Shown: piece after piece, positions 54,931 to 64,000 of the stretch | Layout: each line of letters opens with the position of its first letter | Numbering within the stretch: the first letter of the stretch is position 1 | From: Balneola sp. | GTDB taxonomy: Bacteria > Bacteroidota > Rhodothermia > Balneolales > Balneolaceae | NCBI GenBank assembly: GCA_002696035.1 | Contig: NZQV01000010.1 | Location: forward strand, 186,001 to 250,000 | Direction of reading: 5' to 3' | DNA length: 64,000 nucleotides | Notes under the pieces: generated by a model | The model's input: only the letters and a program-made list of their open reading frames with translations | Databases searched by the model: none | Told to the model about the DNA's origin: nothing | Program-made: the position numbers and the translations under genes

Positions 54931-56439
54931 ATGCTACGTAACCAACAAAATTTAAATCAAAAACAGCAGCAGAGTTTACAGCAAAAACTCTCACCCCAAC
55001 AGCTTCAGTATATCAAATTACTGCAGCTGCCTACCATTGGTCTGGAGCAACGGATCAAAGAAGAGATAGAAGCGAATCCTGTGCTGGAGGAAGTGGATCC
55101 GGGAGAGTATGAAACCGTTAGTCTTTCCGAGGTTGAAGAAGAGCCAAAAGAAGAAAAGGAAGAAGCCCTCGAAAGCCTGGAAGAGCACGAAGTAGACTGG
55201 GATGAATTTGATAACAATACCGAATATGACGGTGAGCAATTTGGTAACTCATATAATCCCGATATTGAAGAGTGGAAGGAGCTGCCAAACCCATATCAGG
55301 CTTCTTTTTTGGAGGAGTTGGAAGAACAGGTAAGCCTGCTGGATCTGTCTGACGAGGAAATTCTTATTGCCGAACAAATTCTGGGTTCCCTGGATGAAGA
55401 CGGTTATTTCCGCCGCGAACTTGAAGCCGTTGTAGATAATATTGCCTTTAATCAGGGCGTGTTAGTGGATGAGGAAAAGGTGGAAAAAGTTCGAAAAGAA
55501 ATACAACAGCTTGAGCCGATCGGCGTGGCTTCGCGTGATCTTCAGGATTGTTTGCTGGTTCAGCTGGAAGCTTCCGAAAAAGACCTTCCCCGTTTAGACC
55601 TTGCTAAGAAGATTGTTCGTGATGAATGGAAGGCCTTCGAGAAAAAACATTTTTCTAAACTTCTGAAAAAATTCAATGTAGATCGTGAAGAATTGAATGA
55701 GGCTTTTGATGCTATCAAGCAGATGGACCCCCGGCCGGGTTCTGTATCAAGCGGACTGGAGGAAACACAAAATTATATAGAGCCTGATTTTGAAGTGTAC
55801 TGGAAAGGAACCGGAGAAGGAGAAAGTGAACGCGGTGAATTCGTGATCAACTTGAATCAGCGGAATGCGCCTTCCCTGCGCATTTCTCCTGAGTACAAAC
55901 AGATGTGGGAGGAGATCAAAGCCAAAAAGGATAAAAAGGCCAATAACGATGCCAAGAATTTCATGAAGAGTAAGATCGATTCAGCCAGCTGGTTTATTGA
56001 GTCGATCCGTCAGCGCCAGAATACGTTGATGAACATCATGAAAACGATCGTGGCGCTGCAGGAAGATTTCTTCAAGTATGGCGAGGGACTCAGGCCCATG
56101 ATCCTCAAAGATGTAGCGGAACGCATTGGAATGGATATATCAACCGTTTCGCGAGTGGTGAATGGCAAGTATGTACAAACTCATTTTGGGGTGTACGAAT
56201 TAAAATATTTCTTCAATGAAGGGCTGGAAACCGAAAGCGGGGAAGAGGTATCAAATCGGGAAGTAAAGAACATCCTACAAAATCTTATCGACAAGGAAGA
56301 CAAACAAAAGCCTTACAGCGATCAACAGCTCACCGATATGCTGAATGAGAAAGGATATAAAGTGGCTCGCCGAACCGTAAGCAAATACCGGGAACAGCTC
56401 AATCAACCCGTGGCAAGGATGCGCAAGCAGGTTATTTGA
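54931..56439 (+). CDS. rpoN: RNA polymerase sigma-54 factor
   Basis: The 502-residue protein has the Gln-rich region I (QQQSLQQKLSPQQLQYIKLL) needed for response to AAA+ activators and an acidic region II. It also has the core-binding domain and the DNA-binding part, with MDISTVSRVVNGKYVQTHFG (helix-turn-helix). The diagnostic RpoN box ARRTVSKYREQL lies near the C terminus (about residue 484). It directs transcription from -24/-12 promoters with enhancer-binding activators. No activator gene is in the window. Its stop lies two bases from the stop of the convergent MotB-like gene. Confidence 0.95.
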   Translation: MLRNQQNLNQKQQQSLQQKLSPQQLQYIKLLQLPTIGLEQRIKEEIEANPVLEEVDPGEYETVSLSEVEEEPKEEKEEALESLEEHEVDWDEFDNNTEYDGEQFGNSYNPDIEEWKELPNPYQASFLEELEEQVSLLDLSDEEILIAEQILGSLDEDGYFRRELEAVVDNIAFNQGVLVDEEKVEKVRKEIQQLEPIGVASRDLQDCLLVQLEASEKDLPRLDLAKKIVRDEWKAFEKKHFSKLLKKFNVDREELNEAFDAIKQMDPRPGSVSSGLEETQNYIEPDFEVYWKGTGEGESERGEFVINLNQRNAPSLRISPEYKQMWEEIKAKKDKKANNDAKNFMKSKIDSASWFIESIRQRQNTLMNIMKTIVALQEDFFKYGEGLRPMILKDVAERIGMDISTVSRVVNGKYVQTHFGVYELKYFFNEGLETESGEEVSNREVKNILQNLIDKEDKQKPYSDQQLTDMLNEKGYKVARRTVSKYREQLNQPVARMRKQVI

Positions 56440-56441
56440 AA

Positions 56442-57956
56442 TTATCCCGGAAGTTCTAAAAGATAGAGAACCGGTTTCAGATCATAGCTGGTATAGGAAA
56501 GATCGGAATAGAGTTGCTGAATGTGATCCCAATTTCCTGTTTTATATGAGGTCAGGGCAAAATCACCGTTTTCAAGCTGTTTTATGGATGTGGAAATAGC
56601 CATCAGCGTTGAGATCTTTTTGGCAAGGTCTTTTGCGTCTGTTTCATCATCAAATAAAGCCAACTGAACCTGGAATTCAAATTGATAGGGTGAGCTATTC
56701 AGATCAGCAAAACCGATAAAGTTCTTACTGCCCAGTTCTTCGGATAAGACATCAGCTTGCTCCAAGGTCTCCTTTAAACTGCTTCCGGGCTTAGAAACCA
56801 CCCTGTAAAGTCCGCTAGATGTATTAATGATATCTGTGGTTATGTTGAACCGTTCCTGCAGTGAGGAGGCAAGTGAGCCTGCATTTTGCTGGCTGCCAAA
56901 AGCACCCAGTTGAATTTGAAATTCTACAGGCTCCGGTCGGTTTGCAGAATTGTTATAGCATTGGTGAATGAGTCCCAAATTTGATGCTCCCGATCGGTTT
57001 GAAAGCGCGCTGTGATGGGATAGCGTTGCAGGTAAGTTATTATTTGGTGCCGTACGGACTGAAAACAACCGGCCGTTGTAGGTAATATTGAAATCCAGGT
57101 CTGAATTTCTGGTTGCAACTTTAGCTCTGTTCAAAGCATTTGAAAAAGATTCAAAACCACCAAGTTGTACAGAAAACCGGCAATTCGTATCGATAGTCGC
57201 TATTGTTTCATTATCTGTATTGGTACTAGTTTCGGATTCATTGTTAGCCAGGGCTTCGGAGGTATCATAAAATAGACGCAGGGTAACCCGGCGGTTCTTA
57301 GCTCTGTTTTCGGGGATAGGATTCCCGGCCGCATCCACATTGGGGACAAGAGGGCGGGAGTCGGCATATCCGGAGGCTTTCAATCGTTCTTTGCTAATTC
57401 CCATTCCGCTGAGATATTTGACAAGATTGGTAGCACGTGCGGTAGAAAGCTCCCAGTTGGAGTCGTATGCCGGAGAATGAATGGGAACATCATCGGTGTG
57501 GCCTTCCACTTCAATGTTGAAATCGGTATAGGCATTGTTTTGGATAGCTTCAACGATCTCGTTGAGTAAACCCAGTGATTCGGAATTTATAGTGGCGCTT
57601 CCTGAAAGATATAATTCATCACTCTTTAGGCGGATCAAAAGGTCATTGAGGTCTCTTTCGATCTCAATTTTGTTATCACCAACCTCATCAAGAAGTGCAA
57701 TTTCTAACTGCCGCTCAATTTTATTGATGGGGGTGGAGATGTACTCGGCCTCTTCTGCATCAGATTTGAACAATCCGGAAACCGAGAAAACATCCCGGTC
57801 AGAAAAATGAGAAATGGAGAGTAAAATGATAAGGAATCCGAGTAAAATGGTGATAATATCTAAGTAGCTGATCTGCCAGCTATCCTCTTCAACCTCTTCA
57901 AGGTCTTGCTCGGGGTACATCGAATTGTTGGTATCGATATGCGGGTCTTTGCTCAC
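56442..57956 (-). CDS. MotB-like stator protein with OmpA domain and three SPOR-like repeats
   Basis: The 504-residue protein has one N-terminal membrane helix, SYLDIITILLGFLIILLSIS, in which Asp33 matches the proton-conducting Asp of MotB (Asp32 in E. coli). A periplasmic linker and an OmpA/MotB peptidoglycan-binding domain follow (about residues 115-235, with IEVEGHTDDVP, STARATNLVKYL and NRAKNRRVTLRL). Three SPOR-like units come next (about 258-340, 345-415 and 428-500): FSVQLGGFESFSNAL, FQIQLGAFGSQQNAG and FQVQLALFDDETDAK. SPOR domains bind denuded glycan strands. MotB normally ends after the OmpA domain, so this tail is unusual. It starts with GTG, 13 bases after the MotA-like gene. Confidence 0.83.
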   Translation of the reverse strand: MSKDPHIDTNNSMYPEQDLEEVEEDSWQISYLDIITILLGFLIILLSISHFSDRDVFSVSGLFKSDAEEAEYISTPINKIERQLEIALLDEVGDNKIEIERDLNDLLIRLKSDELYLSGSATINSESLGLLNEIVEAIQNNAYTDFNIEVEGHTDDVPIHSPAYDSNWELSTARATNLVKYLSGMGISKERLKASGYADSRPLVPNVDAAGNPIPENRAKNRRVTLRLFYDTSEALANNESETSTNTDNETIATIDTNCRFSVQLGGFESFSNALNRAKVATRNSDLDFNITYNGRLFSVRTAPNNNLPATLSHHSALSNRSGASNLGLIHQCYNNSANRPEPVEFQIQLGAFGSQQNAGSLASSLQERFNITTDIINTSSGLYRVVSKPGSSLKETLEQADVLSEELGSKNFIGFADLNSSPYQFEFQVQLALFDDETDAKDLAKKISTLMAISTSIKQLENGDFALTSYKTGNWDHIQQLYSDLSYTSYDLKPVLYLLELPG

Positions 57957-57969
57957 CTAACGTCCTTCT

Positions 57970-58764
57970 TTATAATAGTTTGTTTCTCTTAATGTGGGCC
58001 TGAAGTTTATCATAAATTTGAAGCGCCGTTTTTTCCTGCTCTATCAACAGAATGCCTTCCAGAATGAGTTTTTCTCTGAAGAAACGGGAGGAAGCAATGT
58101 CATTCATTTTACGGGACATAGGGTTGAAAATAAAATTCCCGATGATGATACCGTATAATGTAGTCATAAGGGCTGCGGCCAGTCCCGATAGCAAAGTTTC
58201 TATCTCATCAAAACCGGAGAGGATGACGATCAATCCAAACAGGGTTCCAAGCATCCCGAAAACAGGAGCAGATTTACCCATACTTGCTATGATATCATTG
58301 ATCTTTTTTTGGCGATGATAACTTTCCTGGATGTTGGCTTCTCCGAGTTCACGAAGTTCCTGGGTCGAATAGTTGGTATCAAGGATGGAAAACAGATATC
58401 CGGCAAATTCATTCTCGTATTCCTGGCTCAGCTCATTTATAGTGCCCATTCGGTCTTTTTTGATCTCCTTTTGCCATTGAATGACGGTGTCCACATCATC
58501 AGCTAACTGCTCATCATTGATCGAACTGTATGAAAATAGACGAAGGCTATCTCGCAGGGCACTTACCACGCTTCGGAATTCATAACTGATGAAAACGCTG
58601 GCAAAAATTCCTCCAAAAACGATAGCTAAACTTGGAACATTCAGGAAGTTGATCGATTCAGGAATTATATTGTAGCTGCTTACCCCTGTAACCAGTAATG
58701 CTCCCCAGATCATTATCACCAACGAAATCAGAAAACAAAGAATATTTAAGATATTACTACGCAT
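57970..58764 (-). CDS. MotA-like stator protein
   Basis: The 264-residue protein has four membrane helices (about residues 7-27, 43-62, 165-185 and 192-214). A cytoplasmic loop of about 100 residues lies between helices 2 and 3, with YSTQELRELGEANIQESYHR, the position of the rotor-contacting charges in MotA. SAPVFGMLGTLFGLIVIL and LAAALMTTLYGIIIGNFIFN carry Pro167 and Pro215, matching Pro173 and Pro222 of E. coli MotA. MotA and MotB form the ion channel that drives flagellar rotation. This fits MotA better than TolQ or ExbB because of the loop and the MotB-type partner 13 bases downstream. Confidence 0.8.
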   Translation of the reverse strand: MRSNILNILCFLISLVIMIWGALLVTGVSSYNIIPESINFLNVPSLAIVFGGIFASVFISYEFRSVVSALRDSLRLFSYSSINDEQLADDVDTVIQWQKEIKKDRMGTINELSQEYENEFAGYLFSILDTNYSTQELRELGEANIQESYHRQKKINDIIASMGKSAPVFGMLGTLFGLIVILSGFDEIETLLSGLAAALMTTLYGIIIGNFIFNPMSRKMNDIASSRFFREKLILEGILLIEQEKTALQIYDKLQAHIKRNKLL

Positions 58765-58770
58765 GTACCA

Positions 58771-59316
58771 CTAATTTCCCGCATTATAATTTTCACTGAT
58801 CAATCCTTCTTGCTTCAATTGTCTTACCAAATAAGGGATGTTTGGAATAGGGACATTCTCGTCCATCTCCAGGGCCAAACGCCATTGTTCAGTAAATTTT
58901 TCCTGATTGCCAAGACCTAAATAGATAGATCCTCTAAGTGCCAGAATATCGGCTGTTTCCTTGATATCTGCTGCTTTATTAATATGATATAATGCACTTT
59001 GGTATCTCCCCATATAAAAGAATCGTTGGGCCGATATGTAATAAGTAGTGAGCCCATTTGCCCGCCCCTGATATTGTTCAGTCAGTTCTTTTTTGTACTC
59101 TGCTTTAAGCTCTTCTCGTCGCTGTTGTGCTTCAATTTGTTCTTGAGTGAGTTGTGTTGAATCGGCTTGAACAGAATCGGCCTGAGCTTCCGTAATTTCT
59201 GAATCATCGATATCAAGTGTATTTGATGAACCACAGCCAAAGGTATGAAACCCCAAAAAGGCTATCAGAATAAATAGCATTGCCCTTGATATGTTATATA
59301 CAGATTTAATAATCAC
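58771..59316 (-). CDS. TPR-type lipoprotein of the motor-like operon
   Basis: The 181-residue product has a lipoprotein signal with FGCGSS (Cys28), an acidic/Gln-rich linker (about 35-75) and a compact tetratricopeptide-like domain (about 90-175). The domain reads YYISAQRFFYMGRYQSAL, then ALRGSIYLGLGNQEK, then IPNIPYLVRQL. The same pattern, including AQ-x-x-FY, ETA, AL-x-GS-x-YL and IPN-x-x-YL, recurs at the C terminus of the usher-like protein encoded upstream, so the two domains are homologous. It probably sits in the outer or inner membrane facing the periplasm. The start is GTG, and the MotA-like gene follows after six bases. Confidence 0.72.
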   Translation of the reverse strand: MIIKSVYNISRAMLFILIAFLGFHTFGCGSSNTLDIDDSEITEAQADSVQADSTQLTQEQIEAQQRREELKAEYKKELTEQYQGRANGLTTYYISAQRFFYMGRYQSALYHINKAADIKETADILALRGSIYLGLGNQEKFTEQWRLALEMDENVPIPNIPYLVRQLKQEGLISENYNAGN

Positions 59317-59355
59317 CTACTGAACTACTTTTTAAGAAACCTAAAACCAATGAGT

Positions 59356-61239
59356 CTATGCAATTTCACGAATAGCCTTCATTATCTGAAGTTTTGCCTG
59401 TTCGCTTTTCTCATCTTTTATGTACTCCATTTGTTGAAGTTCCATCCGAATCAATCTTTGTTCCCTTTTTGGCCGCACTGAAAGAAGTTTATTGGTAATA
59501 GATTCGCTTAGATCTGAAACTGCTTCCAGTAAAACTTCCGTAGAGATAGGGGCGAGGGCCTCTTTAAGCATAAGGTCGTTCAACCGGGGAATTTGTTCTA
59601 AGGTGATGAATTTATTTGCTATTACATCAGCAACCGGAGAACCTGTGGCTTTGAGCTGTTCGATGTATTTATTTTGATCTTCAAGAGGAAGCTGATCAAG
59701 GATCCGGAGGATATTTTTTGCTCCTTGCTTGAGCTCTTTATCAACTTCAAGAATATCCATGGCCTTTGAGAACAGGCGGGATGAAATTTCTTTGTGGTCA
59801 TTATAGGATAGTTCATGCAGGTTAGACATTCCTATCATGATCTCCGTAACCCGGCTTTTGTCTAACCAGTCTATAACGCGAGCCGTTTTTTGCTCGGGTA
59901 AATAATCAAATAGCAGAGCACATGTGTTGCGATCCTCACCATAAAGTAGCTGTTTGATATGATGAGCATCAAGATGGTCCAGAAACTGGAACAACCCTAA
60001 CTGTTGATGTTTAAGGTTGGGATCATGGGAATGCAGATCCTGCTCTAAGGCATTCACAAACTCGGAAGCTATTTTTTTCTTCTGACTTAAAGAAAGATCT
60101 CCAGTCTTATCTAATTGCACTTTAATAGCTGAGTAGGATTCTGAACTTAAGTCTCTTTTAAGAGCTTTCAGAAGGTGAGAATCGATGGTTTTAACCGATC
60201 TAGCAGCTTTTTTGGCACCTTCATTCTCATCTTCTTCCATCCAGAATTCAAACAGTAATGCCACTTCTTTGGAGTTATTCAGGAACTGATCTGTGATGGT
60301 AGCAAAGTCTGATGAAGTTGCCGGCTTAGGCTTCTCAGGTGCAGCGATATTTTTCTCCCAACTCGGATTGTTTTGTTTGAAAGCAGGAAGATCGTCTTGG
60401 TGCCGGTTTTGCTTAAGTTCATCCCGGGTAAAATGAGGATGCTCTGATCTATCTTTCGATTTCTTCTGTGAAGGGGAATTTGTTAACCGTCCCACCAAAA
60501 GGGTTAATCCCAATAGCATGAGCAAAACAAAACCGGGTACATAATCTTTAATGGATCCAAGTATGGTTTCTTCAGATGCCAAACTTTCTTCAGCTCTGGC
60601 TGGCGGAAGTTCATCAATACCAAAATCAGGCATGTTCAGGAGTCGCACATTTACAACATCACCTCTTGACTCACTGATCTTGGCTGCAATTCCAGCCATT
60701 AAACGCATAAATTCAACTTGCTCGGGGGTGAAGGAGGAATCGGCATACACATTTACGCGAAGTCCTAATATTTGGAGTCGCTTTACCGTTTGTTCATTGA
60801 TTACAGTTTGGGTGGTTTGACTGCTGCTTCCCTGGATCTCTCTGGGTCGCATGTTTTCCTCCGGGATGAAGGGCAGACCCGGCATTAATACATTTTCCGG
60901 CTGATTTTGCTGACCACCAAGGATCGTTTGATTTTCCGTGGTTCGGTAGGTTTCATCAACAAACTGCGCATCGATACTGATATCAACAAAAAACTTACGG
61001 CTGTCGAAATAGTTGGAAAGCACATTGAGTACCTGGGCATCAAACTGCTGTTCGAGTGTTATCACCTTAAGCTCCAGTGATTCCGCTTCATTGATTTGAG
61101 CTGAGGCCGAGGTGGCAGATAGAAGAAAAAGCAGTGAAAAGGTTAAAAAGAATATACATCGGTGGCAAAATGTAGCTATGGTATCACAATATGCTCTAAC
61201 TACTGATGCGCCTGTGGATGTATAAGTCATAAAATTCAT
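59356..61239 (-). CDS. FliF-FliG-like fusion: ring and rotor domains in one membrane protein
   Basis: The 627-residue protein has a signal or membrane segment (28-48) and a periplasmic domain (about 60-205). Its FVDISIDAQFVDETYRT, LGLRVNVYADSSFTPEQVE and RGDVVNVRLLNMP resemble the C-terminal periplasmic region of FliF. A second helix (about 233-252) and a cytoplasmic part follow. Residues 415-490 (LLYGEDRNTCALLFDYLP) resemble the FliG middle domain, and 545-627 the FliG C-terminal torque domain. Aligned by eye to E. coli FliG, Arg281, Asp289 and Arg297 correspond to Arg592, Glu600 and Lys608; Asp288 corresponds to Met599. The start overlaps the usher-like stop (ATGA). Confidence 0.7.
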   Translation of the reverse strand: MNFMTYTSTGASVVRAYCDTIATFCHRCIFFLTFSLLFLLSATSASAQINEAESLELKVITLEQQFDAQVLNVLSNYFDSRKFFVDISIDAQFVDETYRTTENQTILGGQQNQPENVLMPGLPFIPEENMRPREIQGSSSQTTQTVINEQTVKRLQILGLRVNVYADSSFTPEQVEFMRLMAGIAAKISESRGDVVNVRLLNMPDFGIDELPPARAEESLASEETILGSIKDYVPGFVLLMLLGLTLLVGRLTNSPSQKKSKDRSEHPHFTRDELKQNRHQDDLPAFKQNNPSWEKNIAAPEKPKPATSSDFATITDQFLNNSKEVALLFEFWMEEDENEGAKKAARSVKTIDSHLLKALKRDLSSESYSAIKVQLDKTGDLSLSQKKKIASEFVNALEQDLHSHDPNLKHQQLGLFQFLDHLDAHHIKQLLYGEDRNTCALLFDYLPEQKTARVIDWLDKSRVTEIMIGMSNLHELSYNDHKEISSRLFSKAMDILEVDKELKQGAKNILRILDQLPLEDQNKYIEQLKATGSPVADVIANKFITLEQIPRLNDLMLKEALAPISTEVLLEAVSDLSESITNKLLSVRPKREQRLIRMELQQMEYIKDEKSEQAKLQIMKAIREIA

Positions 61240-64000
61240 TTGGGTGAATTTAGGGGTTCCGAAACAATCATTTGGTCTAAGTACTCTTCGTTAGGAATGT
61301 AAATATCCGGATCGTACTTTTTAGCCAGGTTCCAATACTTTCGGGCATTTTCTTTATCATTTCTCAGATAGCTTAAGCTTCCTTTCAGGGCATAAGCTTG
61401 TGCCGTTTCAAAGATATCAAGTGATTGGTCTACAAGATCCATTGCGCGGCTGATATTTTTATTATAGAAGGCATTTTGAGCCTCTATGATCAACCGCAGC
61501 ACATCATTAACACCTTCACTGAGTTCTGTTTCTAAAGCCAACATTTCTTCATCTGTTTTTATGGACGAGGGGATAGCTTCCATCGTAATCGGGGAGACTT
61601 CTTCTTCCGGTTCTTCATAATCTAAAGGAACCAGTAACAAAGAAAGACCTTCAACGAAATCACCTTCCGGAACAGCCTTAACTTCAAATTCAAGCTTCTC
61701 AGGAATTGATTTTGAGTTTAGCTGCTGAAGGTTTCCTGCGTCCACCTGTAACTCGTAAGTACCCGGTGGAACTTCCCATTCATAAAAACTTCCGTCACTG
61801 AATGTTCTTAATTCTTTAGCAAAATCTCCGTTAGAATCTGATAATCTTAGTTTTAATCCCCCAATACCAGTTTTACTGCTATCGCCTCGTAAACGCTGTA
61901 CAGTTCCGTCGATCACACCCGACATATAGAAGGGTATTTCCACCTTCTTAAAGCGGTTAGGATCGGTAATAAGGCCAAATTTCTCGAATTCAGGAACAAG
62001 CATGGGGTTTTTAATGGCGCTTTTATTCATCTCCATGTTGTAATAGTAGTAGGGCTGCATTTGGGTAAGATATAGAACTCCATTCTTTAAAGTACTATTT
62101 GCACCCGAGCGTAAGACCCTTACCGCTTTCTCTTCAATAATTTCATCTTCCTCATCAAATGCGCCATTTACGTTACTATCTACATATAATTGAATGGCAG
62201 TAGCGGCTCTTCCTACCTGATCTCTGTTTGTAAAGATGAAGTTGTTGTAATTAGGGTCATATCCCACAGACCCTCTGATATTTTGGGTTACATTACTACT
62301 ACCTCTAATGCTGTTAAAAGTAGTACTACTTCGGACTTTACTGCCCAAGTCAAATATCAGACTAAATCTAAGGGTATTGAAATTACCTATAAAGTTTTTA
62401 CCTGCTGAAAGCTGTAAACGGCCAGTCTTTAAAATATTTTTTGAGATCAATACTTCAGCAGTCTCAAACTGTTTACTTGTGGGGCGATATCCCATAGCGG
62501 CTCTAAGAAATACTCCCCGCAGAAAGGATGGTAAATACCTGTTTCTTGAAAAATTATATGTCAAAGAAGATTGAATAGTTGATGTCGATGACATATCCAA
62601 AGGATTGAAGGTATCAACTAATCGATCCCTGTAGCCTATGCGAAGATTTATATTACTAATTCGTGTGTTTACATCTGTTCTGAATGTTGTGACTGTGGTG
62701 GATGCTCTGAATCTTGAAAAACCAGAAACCCTAATGTTAAAAGGTACACCAAAGAAATTGAACGGATAAAATGCACTGGCAACTACGCGTTGGTCATCAT
62801 TAGTATTGTTATAGATGGAAGAAGAGGAGATGAAATTGGTATAGTCAAAATTTATACTGGCAGAATTAGGGTAAATGACATTTAAGTTTCCTCGATAGTA
62901 AACATTGTTTGCTGCTTCTAAGGTTACGATATAGTTATTTAAGATCCTTGAAGAGAGTGAAGAAGTAAATGTTGGAAGTGATGTATGATACCCTTGATAA
63001 TATTCAACTCCAGTTTTAGCTGTAAGCCAATCGGTAATACCATAGGAGCCATGTGCCTGAGCAGTATATTTTTGGCTTGTTTCTCCAATTACAGCATTAT
63101 CTAAACGTCCGGCATTAGCACTATAATTAAATTTACCTTTAGGCTGGAATGTAAATGGAACTTGTATACGCTCAGATCGTTGTATGATTTGTCCAGTAGG
63201 TCCATAAATTCTTAGATCAAGTTGCGTTGAACCATAAGTTATGGGTGCTAAAAACCGATAATTACCAAGTTCATTTGCAGTTGCAAAATCTATTAAAGAA
63301 TTATTTAAATATAACTCTACTTCCGATTGAGGAATAGTACTTCCCTGAATTTCATACTCATCAAAAAGCCGTCTGGGTTCAATGGGTTCGTTAGAAATGC
63401 GAATCCCTGTGTATCTGTTCTGGGTGAAACCGTCTGTGGTGGTTTGCCCGATTTGAAGTTTAGTTAACCATTCCTGATCGCGAAACATATATCGCCATCT
63501 TAGATTGTTAGTGGCAAGGTTGCTAAATCCATCAGAATAATTACCAAAAACTTGTCCCTGAAGATCCCCACCGTAAACCTGTAATCCTAAATTGGCGTTG
63601 TAATTAAAACCGTAATTATTCTGATTAAGATTAGCTGATAAGTTATAATCAAAAAAACCACCATCTATAAAAGGCTTTTCTCTGTCGTAGCGTAGCTCGT
63701 ACTTTTGGTCTTGAAACCTGTTTGTATTGGCTAATTGCCTTCTTTGACTGCGAATAGCCTGCTGAATAGCCGGCAATTCTCTTTCTGTAACTAATTTAAG
63801 CGAGAGATTATTGAAATCAATAGAAAAATCAAGATCAAATACTTCGTAAAAAAGATCAGATCTAAGGTAAGAATCTAATTCCTTTATCAGATAATCATTG
63901 GGGGTAAGGGTAGTGGTCTGATCCCCGAATTTTATGATATTTTTTTTAAAATCAATTGTATACGGAGTCTGTTCTACACCAAAATCACCACTAATTATCA
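61236..64000 (-). CDS. Usher-like outer-membrane barrel with C-terminal TPR domain (N terminus outside window)
   Basis: The frame is open to the window edge, so over 915 residues are visible and the N terminus is missing. The visible part starts with a periplasmic domain (ISGDFGVEQTPYTIDF). A large barrel follows, with an usher-type plug segment: VELYLNNSLIDFATANELG and LDLRIYGPTGQIIQ, like the FimD/CS1 sequences that follow YxNG and precede the second half-barrel. After about residue 610 a carboxypeptidase-regulatory-like domain (LKLRLSDSNGDFAKELRTFS) and a TPR-like domain (AQNAFYNKNISRAMDLVDQ) come last. Ushers export pilus subunits. Here the partner is a motor-like operon, so the role is open. 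The stop overlaps the FliF-FliG-like start. Confidence 0.7.
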   Translation of the reverse strand, partial: IISGDFGVEQTPYTIDFKKNIIKFGDQTTTLTPNDYLIKELDSYLRSDLFYEVFDLDFSIDFNNLSLKLVTERELPAIQQAIRSQRRQLANTNRFQDQKYELRYDREKPFIDGGFFDYNLSANLNQNNYGFNYNANLGLQVYGGDLQGQVFGNYSDGFSNLATNNLRWRYMFRDQEWLTKLQIGQTTTDGFTQNRYTGIRISNEPIEPRRLFDEYEIQGSTIPQSEVELYLNNSLIDFATANELGNYRFLAPITYGSTQLDLRIYGPTGQIIQRSERIQVPFTFQPKGKFNYSANAGRLDNAVIGETSQKYTAQAHGSYGITDWLTAKTGVEYYQGYHTSLPTFTSSLSSRILNNYIVTLEAANNVYYRGNLNVIYPNSASINFDYTNFISSSSIYNNTNDDQRVVASAFYPFNFFGVPFNIRVSGFSRFRASTTVTTFRTDVNTRISNINLRIGYRDRLVDTFNPLDMSSTSTIQSSLTYNFSRNRYLPSFLRGVFLRAAMGYRPTSKQFETAEVLISKNILKTGRLQLSAGKNFIGNFNTLRFSLIFDLGSKVRSSTTFNSIRGSSNVTQNIRGSVGYDPNYNNFIFTNRDQVGRAATAIQLYVDSNVNGAFDEEDEIIEEKAVRVLRSGANSTLKNGVLYLTQMQPYYYYNMEMNKSAIKNPMLVPEFEKFGLITDPNRFKKVEIPFYMSGVIDGTVQRLRGDSSKTGIGGLKLRLSDSNGDFAKELRTFSDGSFYEWEVPPGTYELQVDAGNLQQLNSKSIPEKLEFEVKAVPEGDFVEGLSLLLVPLDYEEPEEEVSPITMEAIPSSIKTDEEMLALETELSEGVNDVLRLIIEAQNAFYNKNISRAMDLVDQSLDIFETAQAYALKGSLSYLRNDKENARKYWNLAKKYDPDIYIPNEEYLDQMIVSEPLNSPK

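Follow-up and report, generated by a model that had tools for sequence, protein, structure and literature searches.

A chaperone-usher pilus operon of Balneolaceae that carries a predicted flagellar-type motor

Introduction

Chaperone-usher pili are regarded as passive fibres that are assembled without energy from the inner membrane, and we know of no such system that has an inner-membrane motor. The rotor protein FliG has, to our knowledge, been described so far only in flagella. In the genome of Balneola sp., from the salt-loving marine family Balneolaceae (GenBank assembly GCA_002696035.1; 3.97 Mb, G000 in our survey), the two meet in a single operon. The stretch analysed here, called the window throughout, comprises 64,000 nucleotides of contig NZQV01000010.1 (positions 186,001 to 250,000; G000:C14:186001-250000), and at its far end genes for an usher, a fusion of FliF and FliG parts, a TPR lipoprotein and a MotA/MotB-type stator follow one another on the minus strand. 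On balance, we consider it probable that this locus specifies a chaperone-usher pilus system into which a flagellar-type, ion-driven motor is built, and that this motor puts torque on the pilus.

The locus can be compared with several described machines. With the flagellar motor it shares the N, M and C domains of FliG, the RBM3/collar and second transmembrane (TM) part of FliF, a MotA/MotB pair with the ion-binding Asp and a peptidoglycan anchor, and most charges of the torque interface. Unlike the flagellar motor, its rotor is one fused polypeptide lacking RBM1 and RBM2, the locus is devoid of FliM/FliN, export gate, rod, hook and filament, and the load would be an outer-membrane usher or a small outer-membrane protein. 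With chaperone-usher pili, both the type 1/P and the alternative/archaic kinds, it shares a FimD-like usher barrel, a PapD-like chaperone, a FimA-like major pilin and the order pilins-chaperone-usher, but here the operon runs on into an inner-membrane rotor and stator, and the usher has a TPR domain at its C-terminus.

An ion-driven inner-membrane stator set on an outer-membrane machine is also the plan of the type IX secretion/GldLM gliding motor and of other 5:2 motors (ExbBD, TolQR, AglRQS). These have neither FliG nor FliF, whereas the stator described here is of the MotA/PomA type and has a FliG partner. FliF and FliG have been joined in one chain in experimental fusions of flagella (e.g. 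PDB 8z4d), which contain full FliF; the present fusion is natural and non-flagellar. No description of a flagellar-type motor joined to a chaperone-usher pilus was found in a search of the open-licence papers of PubMed Central, with preprints and most subscription journals outside its reach, and within that literature the view of the initial annotation that the gene set is undescribed is upheld.

Results

On its FliG side, the fusion exceeds the Pfam cut-offs for FliG_C (42.9 bits) and FliG_M (27.1 bits), and a profile of 16 fusions compared with PDB finds FliG at E 8.8e-27 as well as the FliG_N domain of the FliF-FliG co-crystal 5tdy at E 2.8e-4. FliF is non-significant by single hidden Markov models (E 0.025 for Pfam YscJ_FliF_C, only suggestive; E 0.13 for the profile against PDB), and this assignment was accepted only once the fold match and hhalign agreed. 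In hhalign, a FliF profile of 22 flagellar sequences matches the N-terminal part of the fusion at 95.3%, and ten unrelated families taken from these loci reach 0.1-2.4%.

The AlphaFold2 model of the fusion is of moderate confidence overall (pLDDT 68, about 70-90 within domains). Its N-terminal domain has the helix-strand-strand-helix-strand order of an RBM, with long strands like those of the FliF collar, and all 31 Foldseek matches at E < 0.001 are FliF or FliG. VIA-align superposes residues 48-204 on FliF 228-438 (6sd3; Z 13.2, rmsd 1.9 over 102 residues) and residues 340-627 on FliG 5-316 (8wiw; Z 15.5, rmsd 11.7 over 272), the latter deviation probably reflecting a different placement of the domains; the FliG_C domain fits the MotAB-bound FliG of 8ucs with Z 11.6 and rmsd 2.3 over 82. 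The initial annotation had called this protein a FliF-FliG fusion, and the profile and fold searches, which might have assigned it to some other family, place it in FliF/FliG.

The collar and FliG parts are separated by a membrane helix (231-253), after which comes a lysine/arginine-rich stretch. The collar is predicted to be periplasmic and the FliG part cytoplasmic, the latter because RBM3, TM helix and FliG follow in this order in one chain. A complete FliF (RBM1-RBM2-RBM3 with two TM helices) is not present; the fusion holds only RBM3/collar and the next TM helix, and since residues 1-46 are a signal-like helix there is no room for RBM1 and RBM2. The FliG rotor domain with its torque helix, by which a flagellum is recognised, is found in the fusion.

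The stator genes can be assigned from sequence families. The MotA-like protein exceeds the Pfam cut-off for MotA_ExbB (61.8 bits), and NCBIfam ranks it with MotP (E 8e-34), PomA (1.5e-28) and MotA (2e-27), with TolQ/ExbB at only about 0.01. In the MotA tree, the stator of this operon type (type A, below) is split from the TolQ/ExbB proteins of the same genome at 100/100. Thus the pair is a MotA/MotB stator rather than TolQR/ExbBD, as had been proposed from the sequence, and its A subunit lies outside the TolQ/ExbB family. Among the matches listed for the pair by Pfam and NCBIfam there is no GldL or GldM; these scans did not include a dedicated comparison. The MotB-like protein exceeds the Pfam cut-offs for OmpA, SPOR and MotB_plug. 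The stator has the ion-binding Asp and the peptidoglycan anchor of its flagellar counterparts. The affinity to MotP/PomA suggests that the coupling ion is probably Na+. Five proteins of the MotA/TolQ/ExbB family are encoded in the window's genome (contigs C3, C9, C15, C24 and C14): one flagellar, two TolQ/ExbB-like, one of a type-B and one of a type-A motor. The lipoprotein has sub-threshold Pfam TPR scores; it and its relatives carry a cysteine after a hydrophobic N-terminus, and it aligns with the TPR tail of the usher and with TPR lipoproteins of the type-B and type-C operons.

On the outer-membrane side, the usher gene is, like the TPR gene, below the Pfam cut-off, and single HMMER profiles gave no link to known chaperones or ushers; the link was made by structure and by profile-profile comparison, and usher identity was settled by structure. 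An AlphaFold2 model, of moderate confidence (pLDDT 63), was made for the usher of locus L103, 46% identical to that of the window. In its fold search, FimD (E 1.9e-21) is followed by PapC, the best-ranked unrelated barrel has 1.5e-5, and VIA-align gives Z of about 20 against FimD and 14 against the best unrelated barrel. The predicted fold of this relative thus agrees with that of an usher, a family that is defined by a plugged barrel of 24 strands. In hhalign against E. coli K-12 families, the usher scores 95.9%, the chaperone 91.6% and the major pilin 87.8%, with valid cross-controls at no more than 12.4%. For the PapD-like chaperone, compared by sequence, the 91.6% refers to eight E. coli chaperones, and other families reach at most 10.3%. 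One of the four pilin genes, the major pilin, exceeds the Pfam cut-off for DUF4402, and the other three are weaker. The usher's TPR tail (904-994) is homologous to the type-B TPR lipoprotein. An usher-like outer-membrane barrel had been expected here, and a true usher with a FimD fold was found; as for the outer-membrane component as a whole, the barrel stands but is no bare pore, being part of a complete chaperone-usher pilus system.

Table 1. Motor and usher genes at the far end of the window
Feature	Window position	Strand	Basis
Usher with C-terminal TPR domain, 1002 aa in full	61236..64000, open at window edge	-	Fold and profile
FliF(RBM3/collar)-TM-FliG(N+M+C) fusion, 627 aa, predicted rotor	59356..61239	-	Pfam, profile, fold
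TPR lipoprotein, 181 aa	58771..59316	-	Sub-threshold Pfam TPR, N-terminal cysteine
MotA-type stator subunit, 264 aa	57970..58764	-	NCBIfam, tree
MotB-type stator subunit with OmpA peptidoglycan-binding domain and SPOR tail, 504 aa	56442..57956	-	Pfam

The five genes of Table 1 are tightly spaced (an overlap of 4 bases, then gaps of 39, 6 and 13 bases), in agreement with the coordinates and spacing first annotated. Those five genes were rightly grouped, but the operon does not start at the usher: the first 82 usher residues lie outside the window, reaching G000:C14:250244, and further upstream on the same strand follow a secreted chaperone of 275 aa and four secreted pilin-like proteins of 168-213 aa (L006:8245-11580). 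The absence of flagellar export, rod, hook and filament genes also proved correct, none being recognised among the open reading frames (ORFs) of the locus. Rod, hook and filament genes were not recognised among the ORFs of the examined type-A, B and C loci either, and Pfam showed none in the window operon or in the part of it that lies outside the window.

On the other flank, rpoN (sigma-54; window 54931-56439, plus strand) and the motB-like gene are convergent, their ends 2 bases apart, and rpoN and its DUF3109 neighbour border the usher locus in several genera. Outside the window, L006:11760-14066 holds a conserved trio of pseudopilin-like genes, each coding for a hydrophobic helix at the N-terminus; Pfam gives no match to this trio, which precedes the pilins in many type-A loci. 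Near the pilus operon, L006:14370-15374 encodes a surface protein in which Pfam recognises a type IX secretion sorting domain (E 1.8e-10), and a 1395-aa ORF comes next upstream.

Among 394 genomes of the phylum that were searched and whose loci were inspected, three operon types were distinguished. Type A, that of the window, has the order four pilins, chaperone, usher, fusion, TPR lipoprotein, MotA and MotB. In the window's family (Balneolaceae), these ten genes keep the same order and strand in 14/14 loci, so that the arrangement is not due to chance, and the gene order proposed as a check on the initial annotation is indeed conserved in relatives. Two more genomes, in another family of the order, have type A in a varied form and in a form cut by a contig end, respectively. 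Named relatives with type A, from a scan with one short pattern, are all Balneolota and include the isolate-named genome Balneola sp. EhC07 (locus L108); G188, its match in our survey, has type-A as well as type-B operons and no FlhA, FliM/FliN or separate FliG. Type B consists of the fusion, a predicted outer-membrane protein of about 365 aa, TPR lipoprotein, MotA and MotB, and occurs in 11 genomes including that of the window (contig C24). Type C, with a secreted protein of 370-383 aa, a TPR protein, MotA, MotB and the fusion, was found in four genomes of another class, one of them on a short contig.

The flagellar FliGs form one clade of the FliG tree (100/99) and all type-A fusions another (99/94), in which the fusions of the second family are sister to those of the window's family. 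The MotA tree likewise resolves groups A, B and C, with good support for B and C and weak support for type A overall (49/31, with one long branch); rotor and stator therefore appear to have largely travelled together.

Several further loci accompany these types. The type-B operon of the window's genome (L028:11513-16563) encodes an outer-membrane protein predicted at 363 aa and no pilins or usher, and directly upstream lie two large proteins with type IX secretion cargo-like ends. The type-C loci (L095, L096, L097 and L098) are permuted motor operons, and two of the four genomes are without a flagellum. Three usher loci contain a FliF-like RBM3-TM protein without adjacent MotAB: L039 and L041 without FliG, and L040 with a short FliG-like part. 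They are possible intermediates or decayed forms.

Conservation of the motor residues can be followed across the three types. In E. coli, MotB Asp32, the MotA prolines and the charged residues of FliG serve ion carriage and torque transmission. Asp32 of MotB and Pro173 and Pro222 of MotA (E. coli numbering) are conserved across all types. In FliG, types A and B retain Arg281 where type C has Lys, and an acidic residue stands at 289 (types A and B) or 288 (type C); the contact pairs of the E. coli motor are R90/D288-D289 and E98/R281 (PMC12505986). The FliM-binding EHPQ motif of FliG is not conserved in the fusion. As this motif is lost and FliM is absent in 14 genomes, the motor probably works without direction switching.

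Sister genomes of the same genus carry the pilin-chaperone-usher operon at the same site beside rpoN without the motor (L113). Ushers of the motor-less loci are longer and end in SPOR domains (Pfam; 8/8 tested), and the TPR-tailed ushers are exactly those of the 16 type-A genomes, whereas the ushers of 41 other genomes have no TPR tail. When a profile of the MotB tail from the 14 type-A loci was compared with 958 ORFs of all loci, the only matches other than MotB were SPOR-tailed ushers (E 1e-42 to 1e-6), collinear over almost the whole tail in most ushers of the window's family. In one pair of genomes, MotB of G004 and the usher tail of G005 align over 253 residues (28%, E 5e-22), and the usher barrels of the two genomes are 78% identical. 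The SPOR wall anchor thus lies on the MotB stator in motorised loci, with TPR on the usher, and on the usher in motor-less loci. The usher tree implies at least six changes of motor state; judged from these sequences, the motor is a cassette that was repeatedly lost or exchanged. Motor-less operons with SPOR-tailed ushers were recorded at L113, L114, L115, L116, L117, L118, L119, L120 and L121, L116 having two SPOR-type blocks.

FlhA, FliM/FliN and any FliG besides the fusions are missing from the same 14 of 22 fusion-bearing genomes, each with a completeness of 98% or more, and the motor locus is therefore not a flagellum. The other eight (G000 and seven more) have one; in the window's genome it is an ordinary flagellum encoded elsewhere (FlhA, FliG and FliM/FliN on contig C9). 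The suggestion that such genomes would be without flhA hence holds in 14/22 and fails in the genome from which it was made. In the taxonomic literature, Balneolaceae are described as non-motile or flagellated, and gliding is not reported for them (PMC5167729).

Discussion

Sequences and structural models establish which parts are present, their homology, their predicted topology and co-inheritance, and the conservation of most motor residues. The initial annotation had proposed a machine that uses ion flow at the inner membrane to drive or gate an outer-membrane component; its rotor, stator and usher are confirmed, and from these parts we infer the turning or gating itself. In the machine we propose, MotAB would be held to peptidoglycan by its OmpA and SPOR domains and push the FliG domain as in the flagellum, and the fusion proteins would form a ring that turns in the inner membrane, driven by ions. 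The collar of this ring could hand the motion through periplasmic TPR modules to the usher and its pilus. The usher would have given up its own cell-wall anchor, the homologue of which is now on the stator. A moving part would be expected to exchange a wall anchor for TPR, and this arrangement, with the anchor on the stator and a coupling module on the usher, is the strongest non-experimental hint that the usher is the driven part. The output would most likely be torque on the pilus, resulting in an adhesive fibre that turns or twitches and is used on surfaces. A fuller proposal, which we put forward tentatively and as a nearly even call, is that the pilus is rotary, with an ion motor of the flagellum type spinning a chaperone-usher fibre. 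It would descend from an earlier motor that stood alone and worked independently of flagella (fusion, small outer-membrane protein, TPR lipoprotein and MotAB), and would thereby be a new class of envelope-spanning machine.

Several points weigh against torque on the pilus. Rotation, ion flow and the pilus are all read from genes and predicted structures. Ring formation has to be assumed, because the fusion is missing RBM1 and RBM2 of FliF, and the MotA Arg90/Glu98 pair is only partly conserved. The contact between TPR modules, collar and usher is putative, the pairing of a ring with an usher would entail a symmetry mismatch, and we know of no good precedent for a barrel that turns in the outer membrane. 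Pilus assembly as such can do without the motor, given the motor-less loci within the genus. In two genomes of another family (L040 and L041), FliG is shortened or absent and no MotAB is adjacent to the usher.

The same molecular evidence, namely the FliF/FliG fold, the usher fold and the gene order, would also fit a motor that acts on the usher without spinning the pilus, by opening, gating or ratcheting it, so that assembly, retraction or secretion becomes energy-dependent. Periplasmic TPR modules sit where chaperone-pilin complexes dock, and because the type-B motor has a small outer-membrane protein and no pilin gene, the common element could be a motor whose target is an outer-membrane protein and not a pilus. 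We nevertheless judge this unlikely: chaperone-usher assembly is known to require no inner-membrane energy, motor-less loci retain pilins, chaperone and usher, and the swap of the usher's wall anchor for TPR is more in keeping with an usher that moves than with one that is gated. Fusion, stator and TPR proteins might also generate little or no torque and instead span the envelope as a scaffold or load sensor, holding the usher in position or signalling contact with a surface. The pairing of RBM3 with an usher can indeed occur without a motor, as L039, L041 and, with its short FliG-like part, L040 illustrate. A pure scaffold would not require motor residues, however, and MotB Asp32, the MotA prolines and the FliG charges are kept across the deeply diverged types A, B and C, with MotA very strongly conserved; such a role is accordingly a good deal less probable still.

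Two further explanations carry very little weight. A leftover or accessory of the ordinary flagellum, that is, a spare FliG/MotAB that came to lie beside a pilus operon by chance, might be imagined for the window's genome and the seven others with a flagellum, but it is largely refuted by the 14 flagellum-free genomes, by the separate clade of flagellar FliGs and by the invariant gene order around the usher, and is highly improbable. The least credible of all is that the stator pair is an energiser like TolQR/ExbBD and the FliG similarity that of a generic helical repeat. A weak MgtE_N match in the FliG region of the fusion would be in its favour; it is refuted by the FliG profile match, to which no other family comes close, by the uniform fold matches, and by the split between MotA and the genome's own TolQ/ExbB.

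If a flagellar-type motor does drive the pilus, the operon would be relevant to both machines. The conserved motor-pilus operon makes it testable whether the pilus rotates, and what the motor was before or beside the flagellum. Natural controls are at hand in sister genomes that differ in whether this locus has the motor, and in flagellum-free genomes including Balneola sp. EhC07, in which any motion dependent on FliG/MotAB would have to stem from the fusion-bearing machine. The flagellar engine would then be a portable module able to drive other machines, and the pilus of these bacteria a second bacterial surface appendage on the FliG/MotAB engine, built by a different export route.

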